This document shows, one piece after another, positions 38,754-60,383 of a stretch of DNA of 64,000 bases (positions are counted from its first letter, which is position 1; each line of letters starts with the position of its first letter). The stretch comes from Bacteroidota bacterium. Its GTDB lineage: Bacteria; Bacteroidota; Bacteroidia; Chitinophagales; LD1. The DNA lies in NCBI GenBank assembly GCA_947479455.1, contig CANJZE010000009.1:1-64000 (forward strand), read 5' to 3'. Below the pieces are notes generated by a model. It was not told the origin of the DNA and did no database searches. It saw only the letters and a list, made by a program, of their open reading frames with translations. The position numbers and the translations under genes are program-made.

Positions 38754-39650
38754 ATGGGAAACGAAAATATTATCACTAGAATGAAAAATCTGTTCAAGCA
38801 AACTAAACCTGAAGTTGTCTCTGCACATAGCACTAATGTTGGCGCTTTTTACGATTCCACCACTTCAAAATTTATGGAAGTATATGGCGAAGTGATTCAG
38901 GCATTCCGCACTACCGATGTAAAAGTTTATCTCGATTACACCATAGAAAATGCAGAGCTGAAAGACGGACAAAAAATTCTGGATGCAGGTTGTGGTGTAG
39001 GTGGACCGGCTTCGTATTTCGCTGAAAAATTGAATGTTCAAGTGGAAGGAATTACTGTTTCAGAAGTACAGGTTCAAAAATCGAAAGAGATTATTGCCAG
39101 CAAAAAATTAAAAGGAATCGTTAATATTCAGCAAGGCGATTACCATAGAATAGATGAAATTTTTGGTTCCAATATATTTGACCGAGTAATTTTTCTTGAA
39201 TCGTTCGGGCACTCTGATAACAAATCACTTCTTATAGAAAAAGCATTCAAAGTTTTAAAACCCGGTGGCATTCTTTACATCAAAGATTTATTTAAGCGCG
39301 AACACCCCAACGAAGAAGATGGAAAAAAAATTGACCGCATTATCAATGAAATAAATAAAGCATACTGCTATCACGTAGCTGACTTGCACGAAGTATTGGC
39401 GGCTATGCGCAGATTAAATTTCATTCTTCTTTTCGTAAAAACTCCTGAAGTTAAAGTTGGCGAATTCGAACACCTTACTATCTCTAACGATTTTCAAAAC
39501 CTCTTCGACATTGCAAAAATTATTTCGTGGGAGGACTATGTTTTTCCGATAGATTTTTATGAAATAAAAGTGATGAAGCCGCCTTTCGACATGAATAAAG
39601 AGAAGCACTTGTATTTCTTAAATCGTCCCGAAGCGGTTACTCAGCTTTAG
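38754..39650 (+). CDS. SAM-dependent class I methyltransferase
   Basis: 298 aa, ATG 38754. Rossmann motif I LDAGCGVGGPASYFAEKLN at about 76; motif II VEGITVSEVQ; post motif FDRVIFLESFGH and LKPGGILYIKDLF. The GCGVGGPA form and ESFGH resemble sterol/tocopherol-type C-methyltransferases and phosphoethanolamine or small-molecule methyltransferases. No signal peptide. Sits 42 bp before the UbiA-family gene on the same strand, so lipid or prenyl-linked substrate is plausible. First gene of the accessory locus. Confidence 0.85.
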   Translation: MGNENIITRMKNLFKQTKPEVVSAHSTNVGAFYDSTTSKFMEVYGEVIQAFRTTDVKVYLDYTIENAELKDGQKILDAGCGVGGPASYFAEKLNVQVEGITVSEVQVQKSKEIIASKKLKGIVNIQQGDYHRIDEIFGSNIFDRVIFLESFGHSDNKSLLIEKAFKVLKPGGILYIKDLFKREHPNEEDGKKIDRIINEINKAYCYHVADLHEVLAAMRRLNFILLFVKTPEVKVGEFEHLTISNDFQNLFDIAKIISWEDYVFPIDFYEIKVMKPPFDMNKEKHLYFLNRPEAVTQL

Positions 39651-39692
39651 GCCAATTGATATATTTAGATTGGCAAATGTAGCCCCCGCAAA

Positions 39693-40838
39693 ATGGAAAA
39701 CAACAAAGGATTTTTTCGAATCAATGATTGGTGGAAGAGCAAAGCCGCTCTGCTCATGGGGATTGTTTATCTGTTTACTGCCTGGTATACTATTTCGTTT
39801 CAACATTTTATATCCCTCGCTTTGCTTTCCATTACGACCATTTCGGGTTTCGCTTCAATGGGCTATTTGATCAATGATTTTTTTGACAGAAAAAAAGATT
39901 TTGCCGCTGGTAAGCAAAATTTTTTGCTGAACAAATCTGCTTTAATTATTTCCTTTCTGTTTCTTCTGTCTTCTATATTTTTATTTCTGCCTTGGTTCAA
40001 ACTTCCATTCAACCAGTTTTCTATAACATTGATTTTTGTAGAAATCTTTTTTTTGCTTGTTTATTCTTTACCTCCCATTCGTTTAAAAGAAAAGGGACTG
40101 AGTGGTGTTTTCGCGGATGCTTTGTATGCACATAGCATTCCTGTGATACTTGCAGGATATACCTTTTCATTAGCTGCAAACCATACCTTCGAGGCAGTTC
40201 CGGTAATGTTTCTCTTTTTATGGCAAATAGCAATGGGAATAAGAAATATTTTACTTCACCAACATAACGACACTTCACTTGATTCAAAAGTTGGGAACAA
40301 GACTTGGGTAATTCAATCGACCGAAGCCACTTTTCATAGACAAATAAAAACAGTCTTGATTGCTGAAATTTCTCTAAGCCTTATTTTTTTTCTGCTTCTA
40401 TCCTATCAAGTTTCGATATTTTTGAGTGTGGTTTTAGCAATTGTTTTCTTTACCCTCATGGCAACTATTCGTTTTAAAGAAAACGGAATTAAACAAATGC
40501 TTCTTAGCCAATCCAGGTATTTTCCAAATGCGTTGTATGAAAAATGGATGCCTGCGATAATCTTATTTTCACTTGGTTTCAGCAATCCATATTTCTGGCT
40601 CATTCTTTTTTTACACACCGCCCTCTTTAATTTTGAAGCCTATCTTGAAATTTTTGCTTTGCTAAATATTTATGGTATTCGCTTGTACTGGCAAGGCAAA
40701 CGCATACCACTTCGCGCTGTGCTTTCACTTTTCATCAATCATTTCATCTACTACATTTTCCGCTTATTCGGAGTAAACCTGAAAAAGGAAAATCTATCTG
40801 CTCTGGAGTACATCAACCGTAAACAGAAGGATAAATAG
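39693..40838 (+). CDS. UbiA-family prenyltransferase-like membrane protein
   Basis: 381 aa, about eight to nine transmembrane helices. First aspartate-rich motif NDFFDRKKD at 61-69 fits the NDxxDxxxD diphosphate-binding motif of UbiA enzymes; a second, weaker acidic region is VFADALYAHSIPVILAG with YSLPPIRLK before it, as in UbiA proteins. These enzymes move a prenyl chain onto an acceptor, including polyprenyl transfer to phosphoribose. Longer than most UbiA proteins because of a roughly 90-residue C-terminal extension. Stop is 6 bp before asnB, indicating one operon. Confidence 0.8.
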   Translation: MENNKGFFRINDWWKSKAALLMGIVYLFTAWYTISFQHFISLALLSITTISGFASMGYLINDFFDRKKDFAAGKQNFLLNKSALIISFLFLLSSIFLFLPWFKLPFNQFSITLIFVEIFFLLVYSLPPIRLKEKGLSGVFADALYAHSIPVILAGYTFSLAANHTFEAVPVMFLFLWQIAMGIRNILLHQHNDTSLDSKVGNKTWVIQSTEATFHRQIKTVLIAEISLSLIFFLLLSYQVSIFLSVVLAIVFFTLMATIRFKENGIKQMLLSQSRYFPNALYEKWMPAIILFSLGFSNPYFWLILFLHTALFNFEAYLEIFALLNIYGIRLYWQGKRIPLRAVLSLFINHFIYYIFRLFGVNLKKENLSALEYINRKQKDK

Positions 40839-40844
40839 ACAGCC

Positions 40845-42629
40845 ATGTGTGGAATTGTTGGTCAGATAAATTTTCAAAAAACAATTGAACGAACTGCGTT
40901 CATTACGATGCGCGATACGCTTGCACATCGCGGACCAGATGATGCCGGTGCTGTTTTTTTTGAAAATGATTCCATTGCGCTAGCCCACCGTAGACTTTCT
41001 TTTCTCGATTTAAGCGAAGCGGGCAGACAGCCAATGTGCAATGCAGATGGAACTGTTTGGATTACTCTCAATGGCGAAATCTACAATTACATTGAACTTC
41101 GTAATGAATTATTGAAACTGAATTACCGTTTCAAAACCGCAACGGACACCGAAGTTATTATACATGGATATGAAGCATGGGGAACGGAAATTATTTCGAG
41201 GCTGAAAGGAATGTTTGCTTTTGGATTGCTTGATTTAAAAACCAATCAACTTCTCCTTGCACGCGATACCTTTGGCATTAAACCCCTTTACTACTATGAA
41301 AACAATGGGCAATTCATTTTTGCCTCTGAGCTAAAAGCAATTTTAAAATGCAGCGCTGTAAAACGCGAAATTGATTTCACCTCGTTTGCCGATTATTTTA
41401 TTTACCGCTACGTGCCTTCTCCAAAAAGCATTTGGAAAAATATTTCCAAACTTCCTCCAGCACATTTTTTGATTTTTGATTACAAAAAAAACACTACTGA
41501 ACTTACTGAATATCGTCATCTAAAATTCGATTCAAAGAAAATAAACGAACAGGATTTAGTTTCAGAAGTTGGGAAAATGCTTGAACAATCAGTGAGCATT
41601 CACGCGCGAAGCGATGTGCCTATCGGTTCATTTTTAAGTGGCGGTTATGACAGCTCAGCTATAGTTTACTACTTAACCAAACTTGGTTACAAGCCCGAAA
41701 CTTTTTCAATTGGCTTTAAAGATTGGCAAAACAGCGAACATCATTTTGCAGAACTAGTTGCAAACCATTTAAAAGTCCCTCACAATGTTACACTCGCTAC
41801 AAATGAAACACTCGACCTACTCGACATAATGCCTGATGTTTATGACGAACCAATCGCTGACATTTCAATTTTGCCAACATGGTTGGTTAGCCATTCTGCT
41901 GTACAAAAAGTAAAAGCAGTAATGAGTGGCGAAGGAGCCGATGAGTTATTTGGTGGCTATACCTGGCAAAAAGAATTTTACAACTTGAACAAAGCAGTGC
42001 CTGCTTTGAAAAAAATTACAAATAAAGTTTTGGGCAAAAGCAGTGTCGATTCCGTTGCATTTTATTCCAACGCTATGGCTATGGGAAAATTCGATGGTAA
42101 TGAATTGAAGCAAATGCTTCACCCCGATTTTCATTCCTCAATTCCAAAAGATAGTGATTGGTTCTATCGAAAAAACTTCAATTCAAACCTTTCTCTTGTC
42201 AAATCGCTTCAGCAATTAGATATAAAATGTTTTATGGGAGAACTCGTGCTTACAAAAATTGACCGCGCTACTATGGCGAACTCTTTGGAAGCGCGGGTTC
42301 CTTTTCTTGATTATGATTTATTTGAGAAGTTGTTACAAGTGAAAGAGAATATTTATTTCAAACCCGAAACCACTAAATTTATTTTGCATGAAAATATTGC
42401 CGGGCATTTGCCCGCATCTATATTAGAAAGAAAGAAACAGGGCTTCGTAGGACCCGATGAGTTTTACATGAGTATAGAGCGTTACAAAAATATTTTAGAT
42501 CATGCAGCTCTAATTCGTGATGGAATAGTTAGAGAGGAATATTATGTGCGCTTACTTAACGATAAAGACCATTGGCGACTTTGGAAATTAGCAGTGATGG
42601 AAAATTGGTATAAACGATGGACAACTTAA
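40845..42629 (+). CDS. asnB: Asparagine synthase (glutamine-hydrolysing)-type amidotransferase
   Basis: 594 aa. N-terminal class II glutaminase with Cys2 (MCGIVGQINF), HRGPDD, RRLSFLDLS and NGEIYNY; C-terminal synthetase with PP-loop FLSGGYDSSAI (Tyr replacing the common Leu or Val), GEGADELFGGY and a C-terminal helical part. Housekeeping AsnB makes asparagine, but members inside glycan clusters (WbpS-like) amidate sugar carboxylates. Here it overlaps the next glycosyltransferase gene by 13 nt and follows a UbiA gene by 6 bp, so a cluster-specific amidation role is likely. Confidence 0.88.
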   Translation: MCGIVGQINFQKTIERTAFITMRDTLAHRGPDDAGAVFFENDSIALAHRRLSFLDLSEAGRQPMCNADGTVWITLNGEIYNYIELRNELLKLNYRFKTATDTEVIIHGYEAWGTEIISRLKGMFAFGLLDLKTNQLLLARDTFGIKPLYYYENNGQFIFASELKAILKCSAVKREIDFTSFADYFIYRYVPSPKSIWKNISKLPPAHFLIFDYKKNTTELTEYRHLKFDSKKINEQDLVSEVGKMLEQSVSIHARSDVPIGSFLSGGYDSSAIVYYLTKLGYKPETFSIGFKDWQNSEHHFAELVANHLKVPHNVTLATNETLDLLDIMPDVYDEPIADISILPTWLVSHSAVQKVKAVMSGEGADELFGGYTWQKEFYNLNKAVPALKKITNKVLGKSSVDSVAFYSNAMAMGKFDGNELKQMLHPDFHSSIPKDSDWFYRKNFNSNLSLVKSLQQLDIKCFMGELVLTKIDRATMANSLEARVPFLDYDLFEKLLQVKENIYFKPETTKFILHENIAGHLPASILERKKQGFVGPDEFYMSIERYKNILDHAALIRDGIVREEYYVRLLNDKDHWRLWKLAVMENWYKRWTT

Positions 42630-43849
42630 GCGGAAGCGAAATGACAAACACGAGCCAAAAAATATTTGTTTTCGTAGTGTGTGGTACGCAAGCTCATATT
42701 GAAACATTACACCTCTCGTTGCAAGCAATTCGTAAATTTTCAAAAAACGAAATTTGGATACTTACCGATACAAGCCGGAACGAAATTTCAATTCATCATG
42801 CCAAAATTATTGATGTAAAAACTCCTAGCGAATTCAATCATCATCAAGCGAGCATTTATTTGAAAACCGGCATTCATAAATTTTTACCCACTAGTAATTC
42901 CTACTGCTATCTCGACACCGATGTAATTGCACTTAACCCAGGAGTAGATGAAATTTTTGAGCATTACAAATCACCTATTACTTTTTGCACCGATGTTACA
43001 AAGCTGAATAAGTTTAGTCCCTTTGCGGTAAATTGTACTTGCCTCGCTAATTTTGAGCTTGATAAAACGCTTCCTGCATTTTATGACAGAGAATTTACAG
43101 AAACTGTTTTACCTCAAATTGAATTTATTGACCGCAGCATTCATGAAATTGAACGAAGAGTTGCAGCTACTAAAGAATCAAAATGGGTTTATCACTTACA
43201 TAAACTCAAGTATTGGTTGGGTGGAAAGTTTTATGTTCTGGATAAAGACTATATGTTGGAAAAGGATACAGGTTTATGGTTCACAACAGCAGGCAAACGT
43301 TTAAAATATGAAGCCACCGAAAAAGATGTGGTCGCATACATTCAAAACAAAACCGATTTCCGTTTCAATCCATCAACCAATCAATGGTACCGCAGAGACG
43401 GCTCTTCAGTTTCGCAGTTGTACTGCAATCACTTGCAAGAAAAAATTCAAAACAAATTTAGCATTGCTATTTCACCCGATGATTGGCAACACTGGAACGG
43501 AGGTGTTTTTTTATTTGACGACAATTCGCATGATTTTTTAAACTGCTGGCATGAAATGACCTTGCAGATTTTTAAAGATAAAAACTGGCGCACACGCGAC
43601 CAAGGCACGCTGGCCGCCACTGTTTGGAAATTTAATTTGCAGAACCATTTCACCTTGCGGCTGTCATTTAACTTTATTGCCGACTACGAATTGCCATTAG
43701 CGCATTACTACGGTAATTTGAAATTTAGAACAGCAGGGAGTGAAAAAATAATAGCACCTCATTTTGTACATGTGTATAAAAACTGGGGAGATATGAATTG
43801 GCAAGTTTGGAAAGATATTTTCAATCATATTTCGCAAAATGGCAAGTGA
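42617..43849 (+). CDS. Putative nucleotide-sugar glycosyltransferase (GT-A, GT8-like)
   Basis: 410 aa from ATG 42617 (or 402 aa from ATG 42641). DTD at 100-102 within SYCYLDTDVIALNPGVDEIF is the metal/nucleotide-sugar site; later WNGGVFLFDD and RTRDQGTLAATVW are typical of GT8-like enzymes, with HFVHVYKNW near the end. Residues 165-270 hold a long insertion with YWLGGKFYVLDKDYM and NQWYRRDGSSVSQ. Cytoplasmic. Overlaps asnB by 13 nt and the next gene by 11 nt. Confidence 0.72.
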   Translation: MDNLSGSEMTNTSQKIFVFVVCGTQAHIETLHLSLQAIRKFSKNEIWILTDTSRNEISIHHAKIIDVKTPSEFNHHQASIYLKTGIHKFLPTSNSYCYLDTDVIALNPGVDEIFEHYKSPITFCTDVTKLNKFSPFAVNCTCLANFELDKTLPAFYDREFTETVLPQIEFIDRSIHEIERRVAATKESKWVYHLHKLKYWLGGKFYVLDKDYMLEKDTGLWFTTAGKRLKYEATEKDVVAYIQNKTDFRFNPSTNQWYRRDGSSVSQLYCNHLQEKIQNKFSIAISPDDWQHWNGGVFLFDDNSHDFLNCWHEMTLQIFKDKNWRTRDQGTLAATVWKFNLQNHFTLRLSFNFIADYELPLAHYYGNLKFRTAGSEKIIAPHFVHVYKNWGDMNWQVWKDIFNHISQNGK

Positions 43850-44642
43850 AGAAAATAAAGTAAACGCCCTTTGGATAGGTAAGCAATTAAGCAAACTTGA
43901 ATTGCTTACACTTCATTCGTTTATTGCACATGGTCATTCGTTTAAATTGTGGTTATATGACGAATTGGAAAATGATTTGCCAGAAAGCATAGAAATAGGT
44001 GATGCTTCGGTTATCATTCCACGTGAAAAAGTTTTTTCCTATCGCAACCAAAATTCTTTTGGGCACGGCAAAGGAAGTTATGCGGGGTTCTCTGATATTT
44101 TCAGATATAAACTTTTGCATGAACATGGTGGCTGGTGGGTAGATATGGATATCACCTGTTTGAAAAATTTTGATTTCGATGCTCCATATATTTTTCGAAA
44201 TCATCATGAGTTAAACGTAGTTGGTAATGTAATGAAGTGTCCGAAAAATTCGGAGTTAATGAAAGCGTGCTATGAAGAAGCTATAGACCAAGTGAACGAA
44301 CACAATACCGACTGGCACAAACCCATTGATATACTAAACCATAACATTAAACGGCTTGGTCTTGAAAATTATGTAATGCATAACATTAGCAATCCTGACC
44401 ACTGGGATGAAACGCGGAAATATTTTTCAGAAAAAAATGATTTACCTGCCGATTGGTTTTTTGTTCACTGGCAAAACGAAGAGTTGCGCTCGCGCGATAT
44501 TTCTAAAAACGATTTTTTTTACCGCTCAGCCGCGGCTCGTTTAGCAGCGCATTATAATCTGTTTCAAATGCCCGATAGTTTTTGGCAGAAAACAATTAAT
44601 ACCATTCAACATTCAGAGTTTATACGGATACTTGTGCCATGA
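43839..44642 (+). CDS. DXD-motif glycosyltransferase (GT32/Gly_transf_sug-like)
   Basis: 267 aa. Begins VNALWIGKQLSKLELLTLHSF, then FSDIFRYKLLHEHGGWWVDM and the DMD site (102-104), the standard arrangement of the sugar-binding region of GT32-type enzymes; late HWQNEELR matches the family tail. Transfers a hexose or similar from a nucleotide donor. Coupled to the genes on either side by 11-nt and 4-nt (ATGA) overlaps. Confidence 0.85.
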   Translation: MASEENKVNALWIGKQLSKLELLTLHSFIAHGHSFKLWLYDELENDLPESIEIGDASVIIPREKVFSYRNQNSFGHGKGSYAGFSDIFRYKLLHEHGGWWVDMDITCLKNFDFDAPYIFRNHHELNVVGNVMKCPKNSELMKACYEEAIDQVNEHNTDWHKPIDILNHNIKRLGLENYVMHNISNPDHWDETRKYFSEKNDLPADWFFVHWQNEELRSRDISKNDFFYRSAAARLAAHYNLFQMPDSFWQKTINTIQHSEFIRILVP

Positions 44643-46192
44643 TATTAAGTGCCGACTTATTAAAAGCTTACAACCAAACACGTTCAGGCAACAGCAAATC
44701 GCTGGCTTGCCATGCTCCTTTTGTCAATTTAAACTTTGAGCAAAACGGCAATGTGCGCGCCTGCTGTTATAACACTACGCATATCTTGGGTAAGTGGCCC
44801 GAAAATTCTATTGCCGAAATTTGGCAGGGCAAAAAGGCGAATGAATTGCGCCAGTATATTCAGCAAAATAATTTTGGTGGCGGTTGCACAGAGTGCGGCA
44901 AAATGATAGAGGTTGGCAATTACCAAGGTGTGCGCGCTAAGTATTACGATGAGTTTTCGAGCAGTTTTTTTTCTTCTCCAATTGAAAAAATAAAAACAGC
45001 ACTCACCGGCAAATTGGGTTGGCCGAAGGTGATGGAGTTTGAGTTGAGCAACGAATGCAATTTGGAATGTGTAATGTGCAATGGTTATTTTTCTTCGAGC
45101 ATTCGCAAGAACCGCGAAAAGTTACCGCCTATTCCTTCGCCTTATAACGACAAATTTGTGGATGAACTCGAACCGTTTATTCCGCATTTAACCGATGCCA
45201 AATTTTTAGGAGGTGAGCCGTTTATGATTGAAATTTATTTGCGCATTTGGGAGCGCATTCGCAAAATCAATCCGAACATTCGCATTCACATAACCACCAA
45301 CGGAACGTTTTTAAATAATAGAGTAAAGGAATTATTGGAAGGTTTGCGGGCAGGCATTATCCTTTCGATAGATTCGGTGAATCGCGAAACCTATGCTAAA
45401 ATAAGAGTGAACGGCAACTTTGATAAGGTGATGGAGAACCTCGAATATTTTCGCGATTACACGCAGCGCAAAAAGACTTTTCTTTCCATTGCCGCTTGTC
45501 CTATCACCCTCAATTGGCAGGAACTTCCGCAACTGCTTACTTTTTGTTTGGAAAAAAATGTGGCGTTGTATTTCAATGCCGTGTTTTCGCCACAGGCTTT
45601 GTCGCTACGCGAGCAAACACCCGAGTATTTGCAAAACGTAATATCCTTTTTAGAAAAAAACCCTGCGCCTGCTTCTTCTAAACATGCTCAATCTCCCGAG
45701 CAGTTGAGCATAAATGCTTACAAAGATTTTATTCACCTGCTCAAAGGCTGGCATCAGGAAAAACAAAGCTGGAACGAAATGGAACAGCGCACCGCCAGTG
45801 CGGTGAAAGAAAATGCTTCCTCTACTTATTCGTTCAATTTTACGGGTGAACCGCTAACCGATATTCGTTACCTGATTGGCGAAATAAAAAACTCGCAAAA
45901 CACTGAAGACCGCGAAAAGCTGATACAACTGCAACAGCATTTGCAAAATAAATTTACAGCCCTGCCTACCGAAAAATTGTGGGAAGGCCTGCTCTGCTAT
46001 TTTACCGAAAAGGAGGCCACCGAAGCCCTGCAAGAGAAAATAAAAAAAGTAGCCGACATGATAAACACCCACGTGCAAAAAAACAAAGTGCTGGTGCAAT
46101 TGGTCATCTTTCCTCCCCAAAGCCTTTCGCTGTTTTTAAAAGAAATGCCTTTTGAAAGCCTTGCCGAAAATCTGATGCGGCATTTTAGCTGA
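44639..46192 (+). CDS. Radical SAM protein with N-terminal twitch-like cysteine region (paralog A)
   Basis: 517 aa. Core 4Fe-4S site CNLECVMC: Cys140, Cys144, Cys147; GGEP motif KFLGGEPFM; ITTNGT and ILSIDSVN barrel strands. Before the core, Cys24 (CHAPFVNL), Cys42/Cys43 and Cys83/Cys86 (GCTECG) form a SPASM/twitch-like auxiliary cluster region, here at the N-terminus and not the C-terminus. Residues 330-517 are helical and specific to the family. Shares FELSNECNLECVMC and SSSIRKNREKLPPIP with the two downstream paralogs. Starts at an ATGA overlap with the glycosyltransferase; ends with an 8-nt tail-to-tail overlap with paralog B. Substrate unknown. Confidence 0.85.
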   Translation: MILSADLLKAYNQTRSGNSKSLACHAPFVNLNFEQNGNVRACCYNTTHILGKWPENSIAEIWQGKKANELRQYIQQNNFGGGCTECGKMIEVGNYQGVRAKYYDEFSSSFFSSPIEKIKTALTGKLGWPKVMEFELSNECNLECVMCNGYFSSSIRKNREKLPPIPSPYNDKFVDELEPFIPHLTDAKFLGGEPFMIEIYLRIWERIRKINPNIRIHITTNGTFLNNRVKELLEGLRAGIILSIDSVNRETYAKIRVNGNFDKVMENLEYFRDYTQRKKTFLSIAACPITLNWQELPQLLTFCLEKNVALYFNAVFSPQALSLREQTPEYLQNVISFLEKNPAPASSKHAQSPEQLSINAYKDFIHLLKGWHQEKQSWNEMEQRTASAVKENASSTYSFNFTGEPLTDIRYLIGEIKNSQNTEDREKLIQLQQHLQNKFTALPTEKLWEGLLCYFTEKEATEALQEKIKKVADMINTHVQKNKVLVQLVIFPPQSLSLFLKEMPFESLAENLMRHFS

Positions 46193-50479: not shown

Positions 50480-50487
50480 CAAATGTA
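50480..50487 (-). promoter_or_regulatory. -7 element candidate for the SGNH-radical SAM operon
   Basis: Minus-strand TACATTTG (plus CAAATGTA), a full TAnnTTTG match 46 nt before ATG 50433. No clear TTTG is seen at the -33 position, so the call rests on one box. Confidence 0.4.
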
Positions 50488-50529
50488 AAAAACACCACGC
50501 GTTGCTTAGTCTTTGTTGCTTCTTGCAGA

Positions 50530-51656
50530 ATGGGAAGAATAAATCTTTTGCACAGTAGTTCTAAATACAGTCTTAGCGCAAAACTCTATTATTTTCGGGC
50601 GGTGCGCAAAAATTTCATTCTCTTCGTAGGTGCTCTGTGTTTTTTTCTTCTGCTTGCAGAAATGGGCTTTCGATATAACGGCAAATATTTCAGCTACACT
50701 GAAAGGACGAACACCAGCCACTACGTTTCACCTTACAATGCCCAATATGAAACTTGGTATCACGTATTTCCCGCACATTCAGTAATCAATAAACCTGGAA
50801 AAGAATTTACGGTTTCCTGGACTGCCAACAACGAAGGACTTAACGACCATGATTTTTTAGTGGCTAAAAAAGGCATTAGAATAATTGTGCTGGGCGATAG
50901 TTTTATTGAGGTATAGGGGCAACAGCTGACAGCACTTTGACCAAACAACTTTATACTTTATTGAAAAGCCGCTTGGATACAACCATTGAAGTATGGAACG
51001 CAGGCATTTCAGGGGCTGACCCTTTTTATGAATATCGTTTGTTTAAAGATAAGCTCTTAAAATATCAGCCTGACTTGGCAGTACTAGTGCTGAACTCTAC
51101 CGATATACACGAAGTAACAGTACGGGGTGGTTTTGAAAGATTCATGCCCGATACAACAGTTCGCTATAATCCCGAGCCGTGGTTTGTGCCGCTCTATGCC
51201 CATAGCATATTGGTGAGGCGATTGGTGCATGATTGTTTTCATTATAACATATCGCTATCCAAAAGTGCAGATGCTGAGAAGGAAGCAAAAGTTGCAAACG
51301 GAAAATTGTTTGAAGTGATAGATAGTTTCAGAACTGTTTGTAATGAAAAAAATATTCAGTTACTTTTTGTTTCCCATGCCTTTGGGGGAGAACTGGCAGG
51401 TAATTTACCTTACGAAATGTTGCCGATGATGGGTTATTGCCGTACAAATAAAATTCCGTTTGTTGATACCCGGCAAAAATTTATTGACTATGGAATTGAT
51501 TCGTCAAACTGGCAAAATATACAGTGGCCAATAGACGGACACTACAATAATCGAGGGTACAACTATCTGGCTAAAAGTATTTCTACCGAAGTGTTACAAA
51601 AAATTAGTCCGCTCATTGATTCTTTAGTAGCAAAAAATAAATCACTTTTACGGTAA
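50530..51656 (+). pseudogene. SGNH hydrolase-like gene broken by a one-base frameshift (paralog 2)
   Basis: Two frames together make one SGNH protein of about 375 aa. Frame 1, ATG 50530 to stop 50914-50916: one membrane helix (FILFVGALCFFLLLAEMGF), then VLGDSFIEV where block I breaks. Frame 2 from 50913 resumes IGATADSTLTKQLYTLLKS, then NAGISGADPF, NSTDIHEVTVRGGFERF and block V WPIDGHYNNRGYNYLAKS to 51656. Adding one G before 50911 restores GDSFIEGIGA. Smaller than its paralogs, with one anchor helix. Loss of function or a sequencing error; the reading frame is otherwise intact. Confidence 0.85.
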
Positions 51657-51703
51657 AAATACCCTTACGTATATTACAGAAACTCCAAGCAGACAACGGC
51701 TAA

Positions 51704-52975
51704 ATGACAGAAAAAAAAACAAGAATTCTTCCATCTCTTAACCTCAATAAGGGGTTGGATATTGAAATTCTAATACCCTATCCTTGGTTGCTCATATTGG
51801 CAAGTATTCCATATTTACTTTGGGAAATTTATTGGGCAAAAAAGGTAGGGTATCCTTGTATTAAATGGCACACTCATGTGGCGGTTTACTATTACGGCTG
51901 GTTGTTTTTCTATTTGGGCTTATACTTTTTCAACCATTGGTTCCCTCTAAAAAACTATAGGCGGTATCTAACAATATTCACTTCGGTTTTCATTACCTTG
52001 GGTATTGTAGAAGCCCTGTTAGTTGGCGTAGGTAAGGGAGATACTTATTCAGAGCATATTTCGGCAGGTTATTATTCTATGTATAATTCTACCCATGAGC
52101 AGTACTACCGATTGCATGACCCCAATCAGGTTTATTACATTGTAAGAAATGAGTTTAAGCATTATCGAAAATCGAATTCGCTTGGTTATGCTGATTCAGA
52201 ATGGACAAAGCCAAAAAAGAAAAATGAAAAACGTATTGCCTGCTTTGGCGATTCGTTTACCGAGGGAGTGGGTGCTCCTTTTGATTCTACTTATCCAGCA
52301 GTGTTGCGAAATCTATTACAGCTAAACGACACTAACCTCACAGTGCTTAATTGTGGTATTTCTGGCGATGACCCCTGTGTAAATTACATGAACTACCGCG
52401 ACCGTGTGGCAATTTTTAAACCTGATATTATAGTGCAAACACTTTCGTGTAACGATATGAATACCGACATAGCCACTAAAGGCGGCTTAGAAAGATTTTT
52501 GCCCAATGGCAAAATGCAATTAAAGCAAGCTCCATGGTGGGAACCCATTTTTGCTTTATGTTATGTAAGTCGTTTGTTTTTCGATGTGTTGGGCTATAAT
52601 GATTTGTTGCTTCGCGTTCCGTTTTCGTCAGCGCAAAAAGAAGAACTAAACAACAAAGCCATTGAAACATTTACGGCTTATGCCGCAGAAGCCAAAAAAC
52701 AAGGAGCTATTTTGTTGGTGGTGCTACAACCTAATATGTTCGATTACTACCAAAAGAAATATGAATACGATTTAAGCCCTGTTGTGAAACATCTCAACCG
52801 TTTAGAAAATGTAAAAGTCTTTGACTTACTCCCGTATTATGAAAATGAATTTTTGCATCATGAAGATGAAATCAAACAATTTTACTGGAAACAAGATGGG
52901 CACCACAACCCTAGTGGTTATGCGCTTATGGCACGAGGAATAAAACATGGATTAGACTCACTTTGCTTGAAATAA
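51704..52975 (+). CDS. Membrane-anchored SGNH/GDSL hydrolase-like protein (paralog 3)
   Basis: 423 aa. Three hydrophobic helices in about residues 25-108, then SGNH domain: CFGDSFTEGVGAPFDSTYP (Ser184), NCGISGDDPCVNY, block III LSCNDMNTDIATKGGLERFL with Asn present, DLLPYYENEF and block V WKQDGHHNPSGYALMARG. All catalytic positions are present. Probably an O-acyl esterase or acyltransferase acting on a surface polymer. Stop is 4 bp before the next gene. Confidence 0.82.
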   Translation: MTEKKTRILPSLNLNKGLDIEILIPYPWLLILASIPYLLWEIYWAKKVGYPCIKWHTHVAVYYYGWLFFYLGLYFFNHWFPLKNYRRYLTIFTSVFITLGIVEALLVGVGKGDTYSEHISAGYYSMYNSTHEQYYRLHDPNQVYYIVRNEFKHYRKSNSLGYADSEWTKPKKKNEKRIACFGDSFTEGVGAPFDSTYPAVLRNLLQLNDTNLTVLNCGISGDDPCVNYMNYRDRVAIFKPDIIVQTLSCNDMNTDIATKGGLERFLPNGKMQLKQAPWWEPIFALCYVSRLFFDVLGYNDLLLRVPFSSAQKEELNNKAIETFTAYAAEAKKQGAILLVVLQPNMFDYYQKKYEYDLSPVVKHLNRLENVKVFDLLPYYENEFLHHEDEIKQFYWKQDGHHNPSGYALMARGIKHGLDSLCLK

Positions 52976-52979
52976 AAAA

Positions 52980-54524
52980 ATGAAACTACCACTACTTTAT
53001 TTTTCAATTGCCATTACCCTTACCTGTTTTTTACTAGCACCGGGTGTGTGGTGGGGCGATTCGCTAAATGCCTATATTCAAAGTGTAAGCGGTATTTACG
53101 GTGCGGCTCAACCGGTTTTTATGGCACTGTTTTTAAAATGTACGCGCTTTTTTCTGCCCGGTTCTTTACTTCCGTTTTTGATTTTTGTTACCCTCTATTT
53201 TGCAGGCTTTGCCCTACTTATTTTTTATTTAATTAAAAACAAATACCTCGCTCCTGTACTGTTTTTTAGCTTTAGTTTTTGTCCGCTCTTGTTCGCTAAC
53301 ATAGGCGTTATTCAAACGGAATCATTTCAACTGGCTTTACTTTCAGCATTTATAGCCCTCACCGTTTTGTTCTATAGATATGAAGGGGTGCATCGCAAAA
53401 AATATTTTGCAGGCTTGGTTGTATTGCTTGGTCTATTTTCTTTAGTGCGGTACGACACCTTACACATATCGCTGTTACTTTCCTACTGGTTGGGCTACAC
53501 TTGGGTTAAAAAGCACAACCGCAAAGTGATTTTTATTACGGCTGGTCTTTTTTTTATTTTTAAAATAAGTGCAACATTTTTAGATAGCTTAGTAAACATA
53601 CCGCAGGAGCTTAAACCCGAAATGAGAAACTCGTTATTAGTAGCCGACATAGCCGCCATATCTGCCCAAAGCAAAACCAATTACATACCTGATTACTGTT
53701 GGCAACCAGTAATTCCTAACAAGGAACGAACTGTAGAGAAAATAATTTACGGGCAAAATAATTGGAGCAATTCTTTCTATTCTTATATCTACAATATTGA
53801 CCCTTCGATAGGGCTTTTTACTTACAGCACCTCTTCGCATACCGAGGAACTTTTTATGACTTGGTTTAAAGTAGTGGCTAAACATCCCTTCTTATTTTTT
53901 AAGTACCACCTTACCGTATTTTCATACCTTGTTTTCAATGATAATTTCAACATGGGTATTTGGAGCGGGTTGAAAGATTCTCATGTAAATCACAGCCGCT
54001 TGTTAATAGAAAAAAATGAAGCTGTAGATTCTTTTTTAGTAAAACACAGCAATAGGTTTGCTTACCGTAATGGGAATTTGTTTTTTGACAAGGATGATAC
54101 ACCCATAACACCAAAGGAAGAAAACGCGCTATTACAACTGGCAGGCAACCGAAGAGCCGCAGATGTGGTATGGATGAAATGGTATTCTTACATACCTGCC
54201 AAAACATACAACACCGCTAACTCTATAGCCGAAAAGTATGTCAATCCCTCTTTTGAACTTTTCAAATGGTACTTTAGGGGGCTGTGTATGCTGGCTCCTT
54301 ATTTTCTTGCGCTGGTAATCTTTTTGTTTTACGCACCTTGGCTAAAGCGGGGGTACTATCGCTTTACCTATATCCTGTTATGCTGTTGCGGCATTGTCCA
54401 TTTGCTGTTGCGCTTATTAATACTTACGGACCCTGTGTATCGCTTTGGAATGCTTACGATTCTGTTTGCGTTTTTTGCTTTTGTTATTTTGGTAGCAGAT
54501 AAACTGAACAAGCAAACGGCATGA
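52980..54524 (+). CDS. Polytopic membrane protein, GT-C glycosyltransferase-like
   Basis: 514 aa with about ten to twelve hydrophobic helices. N-terminal loop GVWWGDSLNAYIQSVSGIYG carries an acidic residue where GT-C enzymes place their catalytic Asp; after helix 7 there is a large non-membrane domain (about 225-430). Final helices include FYAPWLKRGYYRF and a tail VADKLNKQTA. Resembles polyprenyl-phosphate-dependent mannosyl/arabinosyltransferases in layout, but no family signature is decisive. Overlaps the following SGNH gene by 4 nt (ATGA). Confidence 0.6.
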   Translation: MKLPLLYFSIAITLTCFLLAPGVWWGDSLNAYIQSVSGIYGAAQPVFMALFLKCTRFFLPGSLLPFLIFVTLYFAGFALLIFYLIKNKYLAPVLFFSFSFCPLLFANIGVIQTESFQLALLSAFIALTVLFYRYEGVHRKKYFAGLVVLLGLFSLVRYDTLHISLLLSYWLGYTWVKKHNRKVIFITAGLFFIFKISATFLDSLVNIPQELKPEMRNSLLVADIAAISAQSKTNYIPDYCWQPVIPNKERTVEKIIYGQNNWSNSFYSYIYNIDPSIGLFTYSTSSHTEELFMTWFKVVAKHPFLFFKYHLTVFSYLVFNDNFNMGIWSGLKDSHVNHSRLLIEKNEAVDSFLVKHSNRFAYRNGNLFFDKDDTPITPKEENALLQLAGNRRAADVVWMKWYSYIPAKTYNTANSIAEKYVNPSFELFKWYFRGLCMLAPYFLALVIFLFYAPWLKRGYYRFTYILLCCCGIVHLLLRLLILTDPVYRFGMLTILFAFFAFVILVADKLNKQTA

Positions 54525-55909
54525 AAAAAATATTACGTCAGTTAGCGGGGCAACTCTTTCTTATCGCCAGCATACTGGTGATAAGTTTATTCCTGTTTGT
54601 AGGGCTAATGAATTGGCATATTGACGGTTTAGTTGTAGCGGAGAAAACCATCTTTCTTGACTTGCTCAACAGCACGAAATATATATTCAACCATGCTTAT
54701 TGGTTCCACACAATTTTGTTCTATCTGCTCATGGTTTATGGAATATGGTCGCTGTTCAAGAACTATTTATTGCCCTCTGTTCTTAGCATAGGAAAGAAAC
54801 ACAAAGACAATACGCTCAAGGTGTTTGTTTTCTTATTTCTGATAATCTTGCTTACCTCCGCATTGGTCATAAAAGAAATGCAAATGCAACGCTTGGGGTT
54901 TTATGCCGGCAGTCGTTTTGGTGGAAATAATTTTTCATTGGAGCATCCCGCCATATCATGGGAATTAACTGCCGATGAAAGAGGAATGGTTTATTACGAT
55001 GCCGATTCTGCAGTAAGAATTGCTAAGCGTTTAGGTTTGGTAGTCAACAGGCAAGGGTTTGCTAATCCATTTAATTTTGACCGAAACACTATTGATTCGC
55101 TTTGCCAAACTACTGCAAATCGAAAGAAGAAAAAACTTTTTTTTGGCGATTCATTTCTGCAAGGTATAGGAGCTTCGAAGCAAGAAAATACTTTTATTGA
55201 GCTATACCGCCAACACAATCCAAACGAAATAGTGTGTTCTTTTGGCATTGGTGGTAACGACCCTGTTCAATATAGATTAGCCGCAGAAAAATTTATTCCT
55301 GAGTTAATGCCTGATGAAGTAAATGTTATGTTCTGCGGCTGGAATGATATTATTTTTTTGGATCGAAAACCTCTGCCACATTTGCCCTCGCTTACCTACA
55401 TAGATGGTGTTGGCTTCATTCATAACTATATTTTTTCGGGATTATCACCCTTCGATACTTTAGCCCTTCAGCCGGATACAGCTTATCGTTTATACCGCCA
55501 AAAATATTCTTTGCAAACCAGATCCGATATGCTGTCGGTAGTGTGTAGGCAAACTATTATCACCTCTCAACTCTACTTTCAGTTTCATCCCCAGCACTTA
55601 TATCCTCGGCAATTTGCTGACGATTCATTGGCTACCTACCGAAATCTAAAGCGGATTAAAACCTTAGCAGATTCTGTAGGCGCAAATTTTACGATTGCCT
55701 TTATTCCCACACCGCCAATGAAAAACCATACCATTATGGATTATGAGCAACATTTTAAATGGGCGTTTGGTGACTTATGGCAGAATGTATCTTTCTGTTC
55801 TCAGAGTACAATAATCGAGAGCGATTGCTCATCAACTGTGGATTGGCATTTCAATGATAAAGGGCAAATTAAGTTTGCCGATTTCCTGCAAAAAACATTA
55901 AAGCATTAG
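54521..55909 (+). CDS. Membrane-anchored SGNH/GDSL hydrolase-like protein (paralog 4, divergent)
   Basis: 462 aa. Helices at about 10-30, 62-80 and 100-118; SGNH domain with FFGDSFLQGIGASK (Ser211), FGIGGNDPVQY, block III CGWNDIIFLD (Asn present), and block V DWHFNDKGQIKFADFL with Asp-x-His. More distant from paralogs 1-3: it lacks the RGGLERF segment and uses DWH where they have DGHHN. Likely esterase/acyltransferase on an exported substrate. Last gene of the block, followed by a terminator. Confidence 0.78.
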   Translation: MKKILRQLAGQLFLIASILVISLFLFVGLMNWHIDGLVVAEKTIFLDLLNSTKYIFNHAYWFHTILFYLLMVYGIWSLFKNYLLPSVLSIGKKHKDNTLKVFVFLFLIILLTSALVIKEMQMQRLGFYAGSRFGGNNFSLEHPAISWELTADERGMVYYDADSAVRIAKRLGLVVNRQGFANPFNFDRNTIDSLCQTTANRKKKKLFFGDSFLQGIGASKQENTFIELYRQHNPNEIVCSFGIGGNDPVQYRLAAEKFIPELMPDEVNVMFCGWNDIIFLDRKPLPHLPSLTYIDGVGFIHNYIFSGLSPFDTLALQPDTAYRLYRQKYSLQTRSDMLSVVCRQTIITSQLYFQFHPQHLYPRQFADDSLATYRNLKRIKTLADSVGANFTIAFIPTPPMKNHTIMDYEQHFKWAFGDLWQNVSFCSQSTIIESDCSSTVDWHFNDKGQIKFADFLQKTLKH

Positions 55910-55923
55910 CGCAATAGCAAACC

Positions 55924-55954
55924 AATAAGTGGAACTTATTGCGTTTATTTTTTT
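55924..55954 (+). terminator. Intrinsic terminator after the SGNH/GT-C operon
   Basis: AATAAGT-GGA-ACTTATT stem (55924-55940) followed by GCG and a run of T residues to 55954. It lies in the 35-bp gap between convergent genes and overlaps the 3' end of the oxygenase gene. Confidence 0.65.
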
Positions 55955-56775
55955 CGAAACCAATCTTTAATTCCCAACAAAACACTGGCGGCATTATCAT
56001 TCATTCCGAAAAGTCTTTTCAGATAGGTGTAACCAAAAAGCAGTTTGTTGTCGACCCAGTTGGGCAGTGCCTTTAATCCATCTCCGGGGCGCGTTCTGTA
56101 TTTTGTAGAAAGCACAGGGTTGCTTTTTTCAGTTTGGGTATAGTAGTAAAGTGCTATTGATTTTCTTGTTTCGTTTTCGGGGCAAAGTAACGGTTCGGGA
56201 AAACCGTGAAACGAAATTTCGGTGGTATTAAAAACAATTAAACGATTAAAAAGTGGGGCTATTTTTTTTTCACAGCGTTTCATATCGGCACTCCAAAATT
56301 CTAAATCACCTCGATACTCATCCTTCCAGTTTTTATTCAGATAGAGTAAAATATTTAGCCGTCTTTGTAAATGATTAAACCGAGGATGAGTAGAAAAATC
56401 TGCATGCATATTCAAGTATCCACCGCGTTCCGACAAATGAATGCCGGCACCTTCCAAACTTATATCAGGCAATAGATTTTCGATACCGGTAAGTTTTTCC
56501 AAGAACTCAATAACCGGTTGAGTATGCATAAATTGAATGAAGCCTAAAATGGAAGTTGGTATTTGCTCTGTGGCGTTTAACCCGTGTTTATTCTCGTTGA
56601 AGTGACGGTAGTGTATCCAACCTTTTTTCAGCGCAGTGGTCGGAAACTCTTGAAGCAATTGGTTGACCTCCTGCTCTGGTAAAAAATTGTCTATTGCAAT
56701 GTGTGGAAACGGCTGGGCAGAAATATATTGATGGTGAAGGTCGGCTATCTTAGAGTTCCACTTTTCAATATCCAT
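55945..56775 (-). CDS. 2-oxoglutarate/Fe(II)-dependent oxygenase
   Basis: 276 aa, soluble. Double-stranded beta-helix with iron ligands His124 and Asp126 (NMHADFSTHP) and His190 (SFHGFPEP); Arg204 (TRKSIALYYY) for 2-oxoglutarate. N-terminal PFPHIAIDNFLPEQEV is typical of prolyl-4-hydroxylase-like family members found in glycan and natural-product clusters. It likely hydroxylates a sugar, amino acid or lipid made by this locus. Divergent from a radical SAM gene, sharing a 79-bp promoter gap. Confidence 0.87.
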   Translation of the reverse strand: MDIEKWNSKIADLHHQYISAQPFPHIAIDNFLPEQEVNQLLQEFPTTALKKGWIHYRHFNENKHGLNATEQIPTSILGFIQFMHTQPVIEFLEKLTGIENLLPDISLEGAGIHLSERGGYLNMHADFSTHPRFNHLQRRLNILLYLNKNWKDEYRGDLEFWSADMKRCEKKIAPLFNRLIVFNTTEISFHGFPEPLLCPENETRKSIALYYYTQTEKSNPVLSTKYRTRPGDGLKALPNWVDNKLLFGYTYLKRLFGMNDNAASVLLGIKDWFRKK

Positions 56776-56810
56776 TTTTTTAGTGCGGAAAATATTTTTA
56801 AGCCGCCTTT

Positions 56811-56831
56811 CAAATGTATTTTTTAAGTTTG
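56811..56831. promoter_or_regulatory. Divergent promoter pair between the oxygenase and a radical SAM gene
   Basis: Minus-strand TACATTTG (56811-56818) and plus-strand TAAGTTTG (56824-56831) are both full TAnnTTTG matches, only 5 bp apart. A TTG lies 22 bp upstream of the minus box (plus 56841-56843); the plus box has no clear -33 partner. The plus box supports ATG 56855 as the radical SAM start. Confidence 0.55.
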
Positions 56832-56854
56832 ATAATTATACAACAATACCTTTC

Positions 56855-58129
56855 ATGAACATTAGAAGTAGGCTACAGCACTTTTTTACTCCTCGACTTT
56901 TCAATGGCAAAAAGCTATTAACAGACTCTACCGTTTTTTGTATGGCTCCTTGGATACAACTGCATGCGCAAACCAATGGCAAAGCGGCTCCGTGTTGTAT
57001 GTCGGCTGTTTATGACGGCAACGAAATTGGCGATTTAATGACGAACCCCAATTTAGAAGCCGTTTGGAATTCGTCCAACATGAAACAGTTGCGTGTGAAC
57101 ATGCTGAGTGGTAAGCAAAGCACCATCTGCAATAATTGCTACGCGCACGAGCGCATAGGCAAAACAAGCGAACGTGGTACATACAACAGAGATTTTGTGC
57201 GCTACTACGAGCGTGTAAAACAAACCTTGCCCGATGGCACATTAACCGAACGAAATGTACCGGTTATTGACTTACGGTTTTCTAACAAGTGCAATTACAA
57301 ATGCAGAATATGTAGCAGTGAATACAGCACGCTATGGTATGAAGAAGAAGTAAAATTAGGATTGAACCCTCCTCAAAAAGAAATGAAATTGGTAGCTGAT
57401 GAAAAGGCTTTTTGGGAATCGTTTAAAAATATGTTGCCAGGGGTTGAGCGGTTACACTTTGCCGGTGGAGAGCCTTTGTTTATGGATGAACACTATGAAG
57501 TGCTGGAGCATTTAATTGCTATTGGCAAAACCGATATTAATCTTACCTACAACACAAATTTTTCTACCCTTCGTTATAAAAAGCACAACATAACCGAACT
57601 ATGGAACAAGTTCCGCCAAGTAGATGTATGGGCTAGTTTAGATGGCATGGGCGCGCAGGGCGACTATCATCGCAAAGGTCAACGTTGGTCGAAAATAGAA
57701 GAAAACATTCGCGAGATTCAGAAAGAATGCAAGACCGTGTTTTTTGGAGTGAATGCAACGGTGAGCATCTTCAATGTGTTGCACATACCAGCATTTTATA
57801 AGCATTTAGTAGAAAATAATTTTGTATCTGCCGAAAGAGTAAATCTGTATCCCCTTTATTCTCCTCCTGTTTTTTGTATAACCAACCTTGCCCCAAAACT
57901 GAAACAACAGGTTATAACGGATTACGAAACTTTTGAAAACACATATCTGAAACTATTTCCTGCAAACATCCCTATCAAGAATCATGCAAAAGCAATGGTT
58001 ACCTTGCTGCTGTCGAAGGATGATAATCTGAAAACAGAATTTCAACAAAAAATAAATGCTGTAGATGAAATTAGAGGCGAAAAATTTTTAGCAGTTTTTC
58101 CCGAGTTACAAGAAATGATGGTGGGTTAA
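56855..58129 (+). CDS. Twitch domain-containing radical SAM protein
   Basis: 424 aa from ATG 56855; an upstream GTG would add 24 residues but would start before the -7 box. N-terminal twitch-like cysteines: Cys29 (FCMAPWIQLHAQTNGKAAPC), Cys47/Cys48, Cys92/Cys95 (CNNC). Core Cys146, Cys150, Cys153 in CNYKCRIC; HFAGGEPLFM; NLTYNTNFS; VWASLDGMGAQGDYHR. I recognise this as the twitch radical SAM family with the auxiliary cluster domain N-terminal. Shares order, not close sequence, with paralogs A-C. Substrate unknown. Confidence 0.9.
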   Translation: MNIRSRLQHFFTPRLFNGKKLLTDSTVFCMAPWIQLHAQTNGKAAPCCMSAVYDGNEIGDLMTNPNLEAVWNSSNMKQLRVNMLSGKQSTICNNCYAHERIGKTSERGTYNRDFVRYYERVKQTLPDGTLTERNVPVIDLRFSNKCNYKCRICSSEYSTLWYEEEVKLGLNPPQKEMKLVADEKAFWESFKNMLPGVERLHFAGGEPLFMDEHYEVLEHLIAIGKTDINLTYNTNFSTLRYKKHNITELWNKFRQVDVWASLDGMGAQGDYHRKGQRWSKIEENIREIQKECKTVFFGVNATVSIFNVLHIPAFYKHLVENNFVSAERVNLYPLYSPPVFCITNLAPKLKQQVITDYETFENTYLKLFPANIPIKNHAKAMVTLLLSKDDNLKTEFQQKINAVDEIRGEKFLAVFPELQEMMVG

Positions 58130-58171
58130 TTAATAATACAGGAACTAATAAAGATTGCTAGCATTTGAATT

Positions 58172-60043: not shown

Positions 60044-60140
60044 TGGTTGCAAAATATTATCAGTAAAGATGAAAAAAAATATTGCATAATGTAGTAGTGA
60101 ATGAAAGTCACTACAGTCACAATTAGCGGATAGGAAAATT

Positions 60141-60383
60141 AATTTCGAATTTGATTTGCACGAACTCACTAAGAGCACTGACGCGCTGCCAAATTACTCA
60201 ACCATTGACTTGTTGTCTTACTATCGCGATTCGCTGCACATCAACAGCAAAAATTGTAGCGAATATTTTTGGAAGCAAGATGGCCACCACAATGCAAAGG
60301 GATATGAAGCAATGGCAAAGGCGATTTTTGCCAGTGTAAGAATGGAAGTGGCGAAGAAGATAAAAGAGAAATCAAGAAAATGA
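60141..60383 (+). pseudogene. 3' fragment of an SGNH hydrolase-like gene (paralog 5)
   Basis: An open frame with no proper start encodes FDLHELTKSTDALPNY, then IDLLSYYRDS and block V WKQDGHHNAKGYEAMAKA, ending TGA 60381-60383. The intact paralogs have the same elements in their last 80 residues (DLLPYYRDS, WPKDGHHNATGY). Membrane helices, GDS and Asn blocks are missing, so this is a truncated copy at the edge of the locus. Confidence 0.8.

Follow-up and report, generated by a model that had tools for sequence, protein, structure and literature searches.

Background

The described systems that come closest to the locus analyzed here are the O-polysaccharide loci with a Wzm/Wzt ABC exporter, the MBOAT/SGNH acyl-transfer modules, exemplified by AlgIJ and DltBD, the three-component systems for pentofuranose transfer, and radical S-adenosylmethionine (SAM) enzymes such as BtrN and BlsE. 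According to Kelly et al. 2024 (PMC11127046), a UbiA-family enzyme is found beside a GT-C glycosyltransferase within O-antigen loci, and the polyprenyl phosphoribose synthase system also includes a HAD phosphatase domain and a MATE flippase. BtrN is a dehydrogenase of butirosin biosynthesis, and in both BtrN and anSME the auxiliary clusters are believed to help oxidize the radical intermediate (PMC6231123). Here we analyze a locus at positions 38754-60383 of a 64,000-nucleotide stretch (hereinafter, the window) of a Bacteroidota bacterium from the Chitinophagales (contig CANJZE010000009.1 of assembly GCA_947479455.1), in which genes for a methyltransferase (MT), a UbiA-type membrane enzyme (UbiA), an AsnB-type amidotransferase (AsnB), two glycosyltransferases (GT1 and GT2) and three radical SAM proteins with an N-terminal twitch domain (R1-R3) are followed by those for membrane SGNH proteins (S1-S4), a GT-C-like membrane protein (GTC), a 2-oxoglutarate-Fe(II) oxygenase (OG) and two further radical SAM proteins (R4 and R5). 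With a probability that we put at about 60%, the locus is responsible for the biosynthesis of a surface glycan, either an O-polysaccharide or a glycolipid, and combines a conserved core with an exchangeable decoration half.

The locus resembles ABC-exporter O-polysaccharide loci in that the cores of some relatives adjoin genes for Wzm/Wzt, a carbamoyltransferase, DegT, an epimerase and PhyH, and in that GT1 and GT2 are paired or fused, with the predicted fold of GT1 matching WbbM among many GT8-like proteins; it differs from them in that the contig of the window lacks an ABC2 permease and, to our knowledge, UbiA, R1-R3 and this clade of AsnB are not part of such pathways. As in the MBOAT/SGNH modules, there are membrane SGNH proteins with Ser, Asp and His, and an MBOAT gene lies in the variable half of the closest relative (G015), but the four MBOAT genes of the genome analyzed here are all located outside the contig of the window. 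The three-component pentofuranose system (PMC11127046) shares with our locus the UbiA-family enzyme in a glycan locus, the idea of a lipid-linked donor and the GT-C protein; here, in contrast, neither a HAD phosphatase (among the proteins scanned) nor a MATE protein (on the contig) was found, and the GT-C gene is not conserved. The R proteins carry a four-Cys twitch that aligns with that of BtrN and a radical SAM core that is nearest to BlsE by Foldseek, but differ from both in the placement of the twitch before the core, a variable helical C-terminal region and the presence of three paralogues in a row. The model NF033640 (twitch domain-containing radical SAM) recognizes R1 and R4 above the cut-off, whereas R2 and R3 fall below it by 7 and 0.5 bits; it is a subfamily model, the retrieved record of which carries no function or genetic context.

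Results

A conserved core within the family

The locus consists of two parts, a conserved core with the arrangement MT-UbiA-AsnB-GT1-GT2-R1> <R2<R3 and a right half that is swapped between near relatives. A match to R3 is present in 35 of 60 relatives, and the best matches in 18 other members of the family have 57-97% identity. We mapped up to 40 kb around R3 in these 18 genomes, counting by hand; several contigs end inside the core. The R1> <R2<R3 order is retained in 16 of the 18 genomes, and the region upstream of the R genes contains UbiA in 13, MT in 12 (beside UbiA), and GT1/GT2 or their fusion in 15, the fused protein of 667-703 residues being encoded in 8 genomes. The AsnB gene belongs to the core in seven genomes, one copy being cut. 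The core proteins of the window are 80-98% identical to those of G015.

Recurrence outside the family

When genomes were searched with the R sequence alone, 272 relatives were detected, the best 80 of which yielded 75 loci (15 of these shorter than 12 kb). Models of the partner proteins were built from family sequences, and 50 of the 75 loci were not used in training; as controls, we took 20 stretches of 20 kb from five related genomes, mostly not polysaccharide loci, although one contains Wzm/Wzt. Of the 75 loci, 46 encode one or more of the core partners (UbiA, R-type AsnB, GT1/GT2 or MT); among the 50 untrained ones, at least one partner is found in 27 and at least two in 17, compared to none of the 20 control stretches. 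Because the controls are mostly not polysaccharide loci, this difference demonstrates more than a chance association, not more than a shared theme. Exporter and modification genes recur as well: of the 75 loci, 12 contain Wzm, 16 Wzt and 15 PhyH (7, 9 and 4, respectively, of the untrained 50). Pfam searches with one member each identified the core neighbors in some relatives as Wzt (ABC_tran; Wzt_C below the cut-off), Wzm, PhyH, a carbamoyltransferase, a GT2-family glycosyltransferase, Gfo/Idh, an epimerase and DegT; a WbpG-like neighbor obtained no Pfam support in the one member checked, and a further neighbor is a putative nitrilase.

Parts of the core are present in other Bacteroidota, in a metagenome-assembled genome (MAG) labelled Planctomycetota and on a plasmid of a cultured methanotroph, with the caveat that taxon labels of MAGs may be wrong. 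In Taishania pollutisoli CZZ-1 (L151), Wzm, R1, three PhyH genes, Wzt, MT, UbiA and AsnB are clustered, with GT1/GT2 absent from the stretch; another locus (L111) combines Wzm, Wzt, R1, UbiA, GT1 and AsnB; a MAG labelled Kuenenia (Planctomycetota; L110) encodes a polyprenyl synthetase, a sulfotransferase, R1, UbiA, AsnB and GT1; and a locus with a Neomarinimicrobiota label (L127) contains Wzm, Wzt, two R1 genes, GT1 and an AsnB of a second lineage. The methanotroph plasmid, pRS11DPr1 of Methylomagnum ishizawai RS11D-Pr (L260), carries, all in one direction, genes for a polyprenyl synthetase, R1 (40% identity over 71% of the window R1), AsnB, UbiA, a GT1-GT4 fusion, Wzm, Wzt, MT and PhyH; with the core AsnB model, this AsnB reaches a score of only 383 bits. 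The presence of the core together with an exporter on a plasmid suggests movement between phyla. Two transposase genes flank this core and exporter on one side.

In the reverse direction, a search with UbiA gave 26 matches above 300 bits (own genome included); as counted by hand, 19 of them have an R match no more than 20 kb away, and the other 7 have none at that distance. Many of these 26 had served to train the model. Among 30 order-level genomes, a strong UbiA match is present in all three with a strong R match, versus 2 of the 27 without (Fisher test, approximately 0.0025, uncorrected for kinship), two of the three having contributed rows to the UbiA model. A phylum-wide sample of 391 other genomes, with at most four candidates scored in each, gave no R match at E 1e-50 and five genomes with a UbiA match at 1e-40, which suggests that R and UbiA genes of this type are rare in the phylum and makes the sample of no use for co-occurrence.

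Two further observations concern these neighborhoods. The Wzm/Wzt locus elsewhere in the same genome (contig C23) has no R, UbiA, GT1/GT2 or MT match. PhyH-like dioxygenases near the core are numerous, with 49 copies in 12 mapped genomes (L040, L042, L051, L052 and others), one of them Pfam-confirmed.

UbiA, glycosyltransferase fusions and AsnB

The alignment of 17 UbiA sequences contains the motifs N[D/E]xxDxxxD and RNxxxHxxxDxxxD, with N61, D65, D69, D193 and D197 invariant. The best relatives with solved structures are DGGGP synthase (1.6e-6) and chlorophyll synthase (2.2e-5), and the profile of this alignment also detected UBIAD1. We favor a prenyl-diphosphate transferase. UbiA is fused to GT2 in one locus (L103) and GT1 to GT2 in 12 distinct loci; together with a UbiA-GT4 fusion, these tie UbiA to sugar transfer. 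This last fusion, a 769-residue paralogue in the same genome as the window, is encoded on contig C6 (L153:5751-8060, strand -) and scores 226 bits against the UbiA profile, Pfam detecting only the GT4 part. Two small membrane open reading frames (ORFs) lie beside it, and a pair of similar size is found beside UbiA and AsnB in T. pollutisoli; Pfam assigned no family to the two T. pollutisoli ORFs beside UbiA, to one of those beside the UbiA-GT4 fusion, or to a relative of GTC in another locus (L066). PcrB (GGGP synthase) was considered as a partner of UbiA, but it is present in 28 of 30 relatives and also in a genome without an R match (G013), and is thus uninformative.

The AlphaFold2 model of GT1 (pLDDT 90.7) matches, in the VIA comparison, glycogenin (Z 18.5, root-mean-square deviation 3.1, 216 aligned residues) and WbbM (Z 17.6, 3.5 and 240, respectively). 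A PDB search with GT1 retrieved acyl carrier protein chains only (E 0.004-0.005), which we judged to be chance matches. The R-linked AsnB proteins form a clade of 20 sequences (support 100/100) that excludes five paralogues from the same genome and one from G009; a second AsnB lineage, found in five other R loci, also has 100/100 support, although the tree warns of long branches.

The most serious competing explanation is that UbiA is a polyprenyl phosphoribose synthase that supplies a lipid-linked pentofuranose donor to a periplasmic GT-C protein in a system of the three-component type (PMC11127046). The published combination of UbiA and GT-C in O-antigen loci is a precedent, the first Asp motif is common to both, and the window does contain a GT-C-like gene. 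Against this, no chain of a phosphoribosyltransferase is matched by the UbiA profile at E values of up to 10 (the presence of the Rv3806c chain in the searched set being unconfirmed), and our UbiA has the second DxxxD motif; a scan limited to 20 window proteins (37005-62086) detected no HAD phosphatase, the contig has no MATE match, and GTC lies outside the conserved core. In two lineages (L110 and Methylomagnum), a polyprenyl synthetase is encoded near R1, which hints at a prenyl-diphosphate donor; yet none of the 6 records and 14 control genomes searched lacked such enzymes, so that their proximity to R1 is suggestive only. Altogether, we regard the phosphoribose synthase function as rather unlikely and favor the prenyl-diphosphate transferase.

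The variable right half and the SGNH proteins

Between S1 and R5, only R4 is common to the window and G015. In the window, this interval additionally contains S2, S3, GTC, S4 and OG, whereas in G015 it includes an S4-like and two S3-like genes (45-54% identity) and, between R4 and R5, genes for FkbH, an acyl carrier protein, a VOC protein, an MBOAT protein and a 312-residue protein. This last gene was considered as a possible SGNH gene, but Pfam gives nothing and no such assignment is claimed. In another family member (G017), the variable half encodes a GT2-family enzyme, a GT9 enzyme and a PMT-like GT-C protein. R4 and R5 are found in 6 and 5 of the 18 family genomes, respectively, at identities of at least 53%; GTC, S2 and S4 have few relatives near R3, and OG none, although a partial relative of GTC (45%) lies next to R3 in one genome (G028). 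By analogy, such exchange between conserved ends resembles serotype switching. The catalytic Ser, Asp and His of the SGNH proteins (S184, D398 and H400) are invariant in 24 aligned sequences; S2 is outside the alignment.

The two parts might instead be unrelated neighbors, that is, a glycan cassette followed by an independent SGNH/radical SAM island, as would fit the difference of the right half between near relatives and the absence of R4 and R5 near R3 from most of the 18 genomes. However, S1 and R3 overlap by 4 nucleotides, and an S1-like gene adjoins R3 in 7 of the 18 genomes (G015, G004, G009, G011, G006, G010 and G018). Furthermore, a search of R gene neighborhoods for SGNH genes, proposed in the earlier note as a check, detected these in 27 of the 75 loci (13 of the 50 untrained) compared to 0 of the 20 controls. 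We therefore consider independence of the two halves improbable, somewhat more so than the phosphoribose synthase function, and treat the right half as a part of the putative surface-glycan locus.

Radical SAM proteins with an N-terminal twitch

The CxxxCxxC motif and four N-terminal Cys residues are invariant in 24 aligned R sequences. In comparison with BtrN (whole-sequence E 8.7e-11; 1.2e-5 and 0.039 for the single stretches), the N-terminal part of the R profile (38-108) aligns with the C-terminal twitch of BtrN (183-257), including all four Cys, whereas the core of the profile (135-243) aligns with BtrN 26-129, so that the twitch precedes the core, unlike in BtrN. Judging from these alignments, R1-R3 look like circularly permuted BtrN-like proteins. 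For the AlphaFold2 model of R2 (pLDDT 89.3), the best Foldseek match is BlsE (2.6e-7), whereas in the VIA comparison viperin, BlsE, MoaA, SuiB and SkfB are tied at Z of about 13, and BtrN does not appear in the table, an absence that does not count against the relationship. Given the role of the auxiliary clusters in BtrN and anSME, oxidation of sugars by R1-R3 is plausible by analogy.

The least likely alternative, and one that we consider quite improbable, is a cluster for a ribosomally synthesized and post-translationally modified peptide (RiPP) on which radical SAM/SPASM maturases, an AsnB-type cyclase, a 2-oxoglutarate enzyme and a B12-binding radical SAM enzyme act: the twitch radical SAM proteins and the matches of AsnB to the lasso-cyclase model (219 bits), of OG to the YhhC model (29 bits) and of R5 to its best model, a RiPP C-methyltransferase (118 bits), would fit, but all these RiPP models are far below their cut-offs (525, 150 and 282, respectively), the largest gap, of 96 nucleotides, leaves little room for a precursor gene (no search aimed at small ORFs was made, here or elsewhere in the genome), the twitch is most similar to that of BtrN, the butirosin dehydrogenase (PMC6231123), and the genes nearby in relatives encode GT-A enzymes, Wzm/Wzt and sugar enzymes. 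A role in anti-phage defense was also considered. PADLOC, run on 10 window proteins, reported viperin models for R1-R4 (E 1e-7 to 2e-15), mads_2 for MT (2.5e-19) and PDC-M51A for R5 (3e-12), all over shared fold regions; with no further part of a defense system seen, we judge this role unlikely.

R-type genes in viruses

R2-type genes are also present on IMG/VR contigs, with 311 matches, the best 80 of which were kept (L180-L259). Viral contigs of up to 230 kb (e.g., L204, L239 and L206) carry arrays of N-twitch radical SAM genes, one gene being mostly 41-51% identical to R2. In 27 of these best 80 loci, an unassigned gene of 264-299 codons comes after the R2-type gene (in 23 with a 4-nucleotide overlap), a B12-binding radical SAM gene is present in 29 of the 80, and both the latter and the companion gene occur in 24. 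The companion was examined as a possible SGNH protein by its motif, but the profile comparison gave a probability of 1.2% and Pfam a weak match to DUF6071, and the assignment is not claimed. One contig (L206) encodes UvsY-, helicase- and SbcD-like proteins and is thus phage-like, of the T4 kind. The only one of the best 80 loci with a GT1/GT2, UbiA, AsnB or MT match is L180 (IMGVR_UViG_3300014202_001517), where R3, R2, R1 and the glycosyltransferase fusion score high; it looks bacterial, though filed as viral. Among named phages, R3 matched 40 records, all from Vibrio phages, at about 25% identity and none with 80% coverage.

Gene inventory

The classes of genes listed in the earlier note are all present according to Pfam/NCBIfam matches, motifs and folds (Table 1), and the gene content is real. 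The five radical SAM genes reported there proved to be four of the N-twitch type (R1-R4) and one B12-binding (R5). The set of membrane SGNH genes comprises four, S1-S4, with S2 frameshifted; a fifth survives as a 3' remnant only, and it is this remnant (60156-60383) on which the reported end of the locus rests. S1 and S4 were assigned through alignment to S3, and S2 by motif. The frameshift of S2 at the catalytic block indicates either a pseudogene or an assembly error. The GT-C-like protein exists, with its assignment by topology only; Pfam, NCBIfam and PDB searches yielded no match. The coordinates bear out the tight overlaps of 1-13 nucleotides (AsnB/GT1, 13; GT1/GT2, 11; GT2/R1, 4; R1/R2, 8; R2/R3, 1; R3/S1, 4; GTC/S4, 4); with the remaining gaps not exceeding 96 nucleotides, the spacing is operon-like throughout. 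The R5 ORF as first called started about 45 codons too far out.

Table 1. Genes of the locus and their assignments (window positions)
Gene	Position	Strand	Assignment and evidence
MT	38754-39650	+	Class I SAM methyltransferase, CMAS/UbiE-like; PF02353 3.9e-18; opens the core
UbiA	39693-40838	+	Integral membrane enzyme, UbiA-type; PF01040 4.9e-11; both Asp-rich motifs
AsnB	40845-42629	+	Glutamine amidotransferase; TIGR01536 455 bits (cut-off 267); N-terminus MCG, catalytic Cys kept
GT1	42617-43849	+	Glycosyltransferase, predicted GT-A/GT8-like fold; DTD motif; no Pfam match
GT2	43839-44642	+	GT32/Caps_synth-like glycosyltransferase; DMD motif; PF04488 1.4e-6, PF05704 2.5e-6
R1	44639-46192	+	N-twitch radical SAM; NF033640 181 bits (cut-off 170)
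R2	46185-47651	-	N-twitch radical SAM, convergent with R1; NF033640 163 bits, just below cut-off 170
R3	47651-49144	-	N-twitch radical SAM; NF033640 169.5 bits, just below cut-off 170
S1	49141-50433	-	Membrane-anchored SGNH; PF13472 8.3e-4 (20 bits, below cut-off 33); GDS and DGHHN present
S2	50530-51656	+	SGNH by motif; frameshift at GDS block; ORFs 50530-50916 and 50937-51656; no Pfam match
S3	51704-52975	+	Membrane-anchored SGNH; PF13472 5.4e-14
GTC	52980-54524	+	Membrane protein, nine hydrophobic segments (hydropathy); GT-C-like by topology only
S4	54521-55909	+	Divergent membrane SGNH; GDS and DWHFN; called by alignment to S3; no Pfam match
OG	55945-56775	-	2-oxoglutarate-Fe(II) oxygenase; PF13640 4.8e-16
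R4	56783-58129	+	N-twitch radical SAM; NF033640 371 bits
R5	58172-~60043	-	B12-binding radical SAM; PF02310 and PF04055; start set from orthologues
SGNH remnant	60156-60383	+	Remnant of another SGNH gene (3' end, decayed); 44% identical to S1 over 75 aa

Discussion

From the gene content, order, co-occurrence, fusions, and fold and motif conservation observed here, we infer the substrates, the order of reactions and the product of the putative surface-glycan pathway. UbiA would transfer a prenyl chain to an acceptor or otherwise charge a lipid carrier, and GT1 and GT2, working as a pair, would add sugars in the cytoplasm. AsnB might convert a carboxylate to an amide, whereas R1-R3, as enzymes of the BtrN/BlsE sort, could carry out oxidation or rearrangement at carbons of the sugars, electrons being accepted by the four-Cys cluster, and MT would act in capping or methylation. 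The product would then be exported, in some relatives by the Wzm/Wzt pair encoded in the locus, and the membrane SGNH proteins, the GT-C protein, the 2-oxoglutarate enzyme, R4 and R5 of the variable half may add species-specific substituents. A more specific version, which we offer tentatively and consider rather doubtful as a whole, is that the product represents a new class of surface glycolipids or polysaccharides, in which the sugar unit would be placed directly on a prenyl chain by UbiA (compare the action of DGGGP synthase on glycerol phosphate) rather than on undecaprenyl diphosphate, the sugars would be amidated and oxidized by the trio of permuted BtrN-like proteins, and the cassette would have moved between phyla, including on a plasmid.

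Several observations weigh against a surface-glycan pathway of this design. The core lacks AsnB in 11 of the 18 family genomes, some of them cut by contig ends, and in 23 of the 50 untrained loci the stretch analyzed contains an R gene but none of the core partners, which does not fit a strict cassette. On phage contigs, the analyzed surroundings of R-type genes gave no match to UbiA, AsnB, MT or a separate GT1/GT2, so that R proteins can serve elsewhere. The peptide enzymes SuiB, SkfB and anSME score almost as high as BlsE, and the fold thus gives no substrate. Sugar-nucleotide genes are not found among the 20 window proteins scanned, and the contig of the window has no match to the ABC2_membrane permease, MBOAT or MATE; in the same genome, the Wzm/Wzt pair is on C23, MBOAT matches are on C11, C5, C2 and C23, and MatE matches on C35, C12 and C4.

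In the earlier note, the genes of the locus were taken together to suggest a heavily modified lipid-linked glycan or metabolite displayed at the surface. That the set is not random holds up, given that its left half co-occurs across labelled phyla and the order of the core recurs in many genomes, but one fixed pathway gives way to the conserved core, from MT to R3, and an exchangeable right half. The proposed lipid-linked surface glycan gains from the location of some cores beside a polysaccharide ABC exporter and from the UbiA-glycosyltransferase fusions, whereas its final product, the group that AsnB would amidate and the chemistry of the radical enzymes are deduced. Acyl transfer is indicated by context only, through the FkbH-ACP-VOC-MBOAT genes between R4 and R5 of G015 with SGNH genes nearby, but is left without an MBOAT gene on the contig of the window. 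The note recognized no described pathway, and our search of the open-access literature, which excludes most subscription journals, likewise yielded no paper on this set of genes.

If the surface-glycan reading is correct, these bacteria would share an undescribed envelope pathway that combines radical chemistry on sugars with UbiA proteins fused to glycosyltransferases. Lipid-linked sugars would then have a further route of synthesis, and the twitch placed before the core would represent a new domain order among radical SAM dehydrogenase-like proteins. Taishania pollutisoli CZZ-1 and Methylomagnum ishizawai RS11D-Pr, both with genome records and neither known to be a pathogen, make this reading testable.

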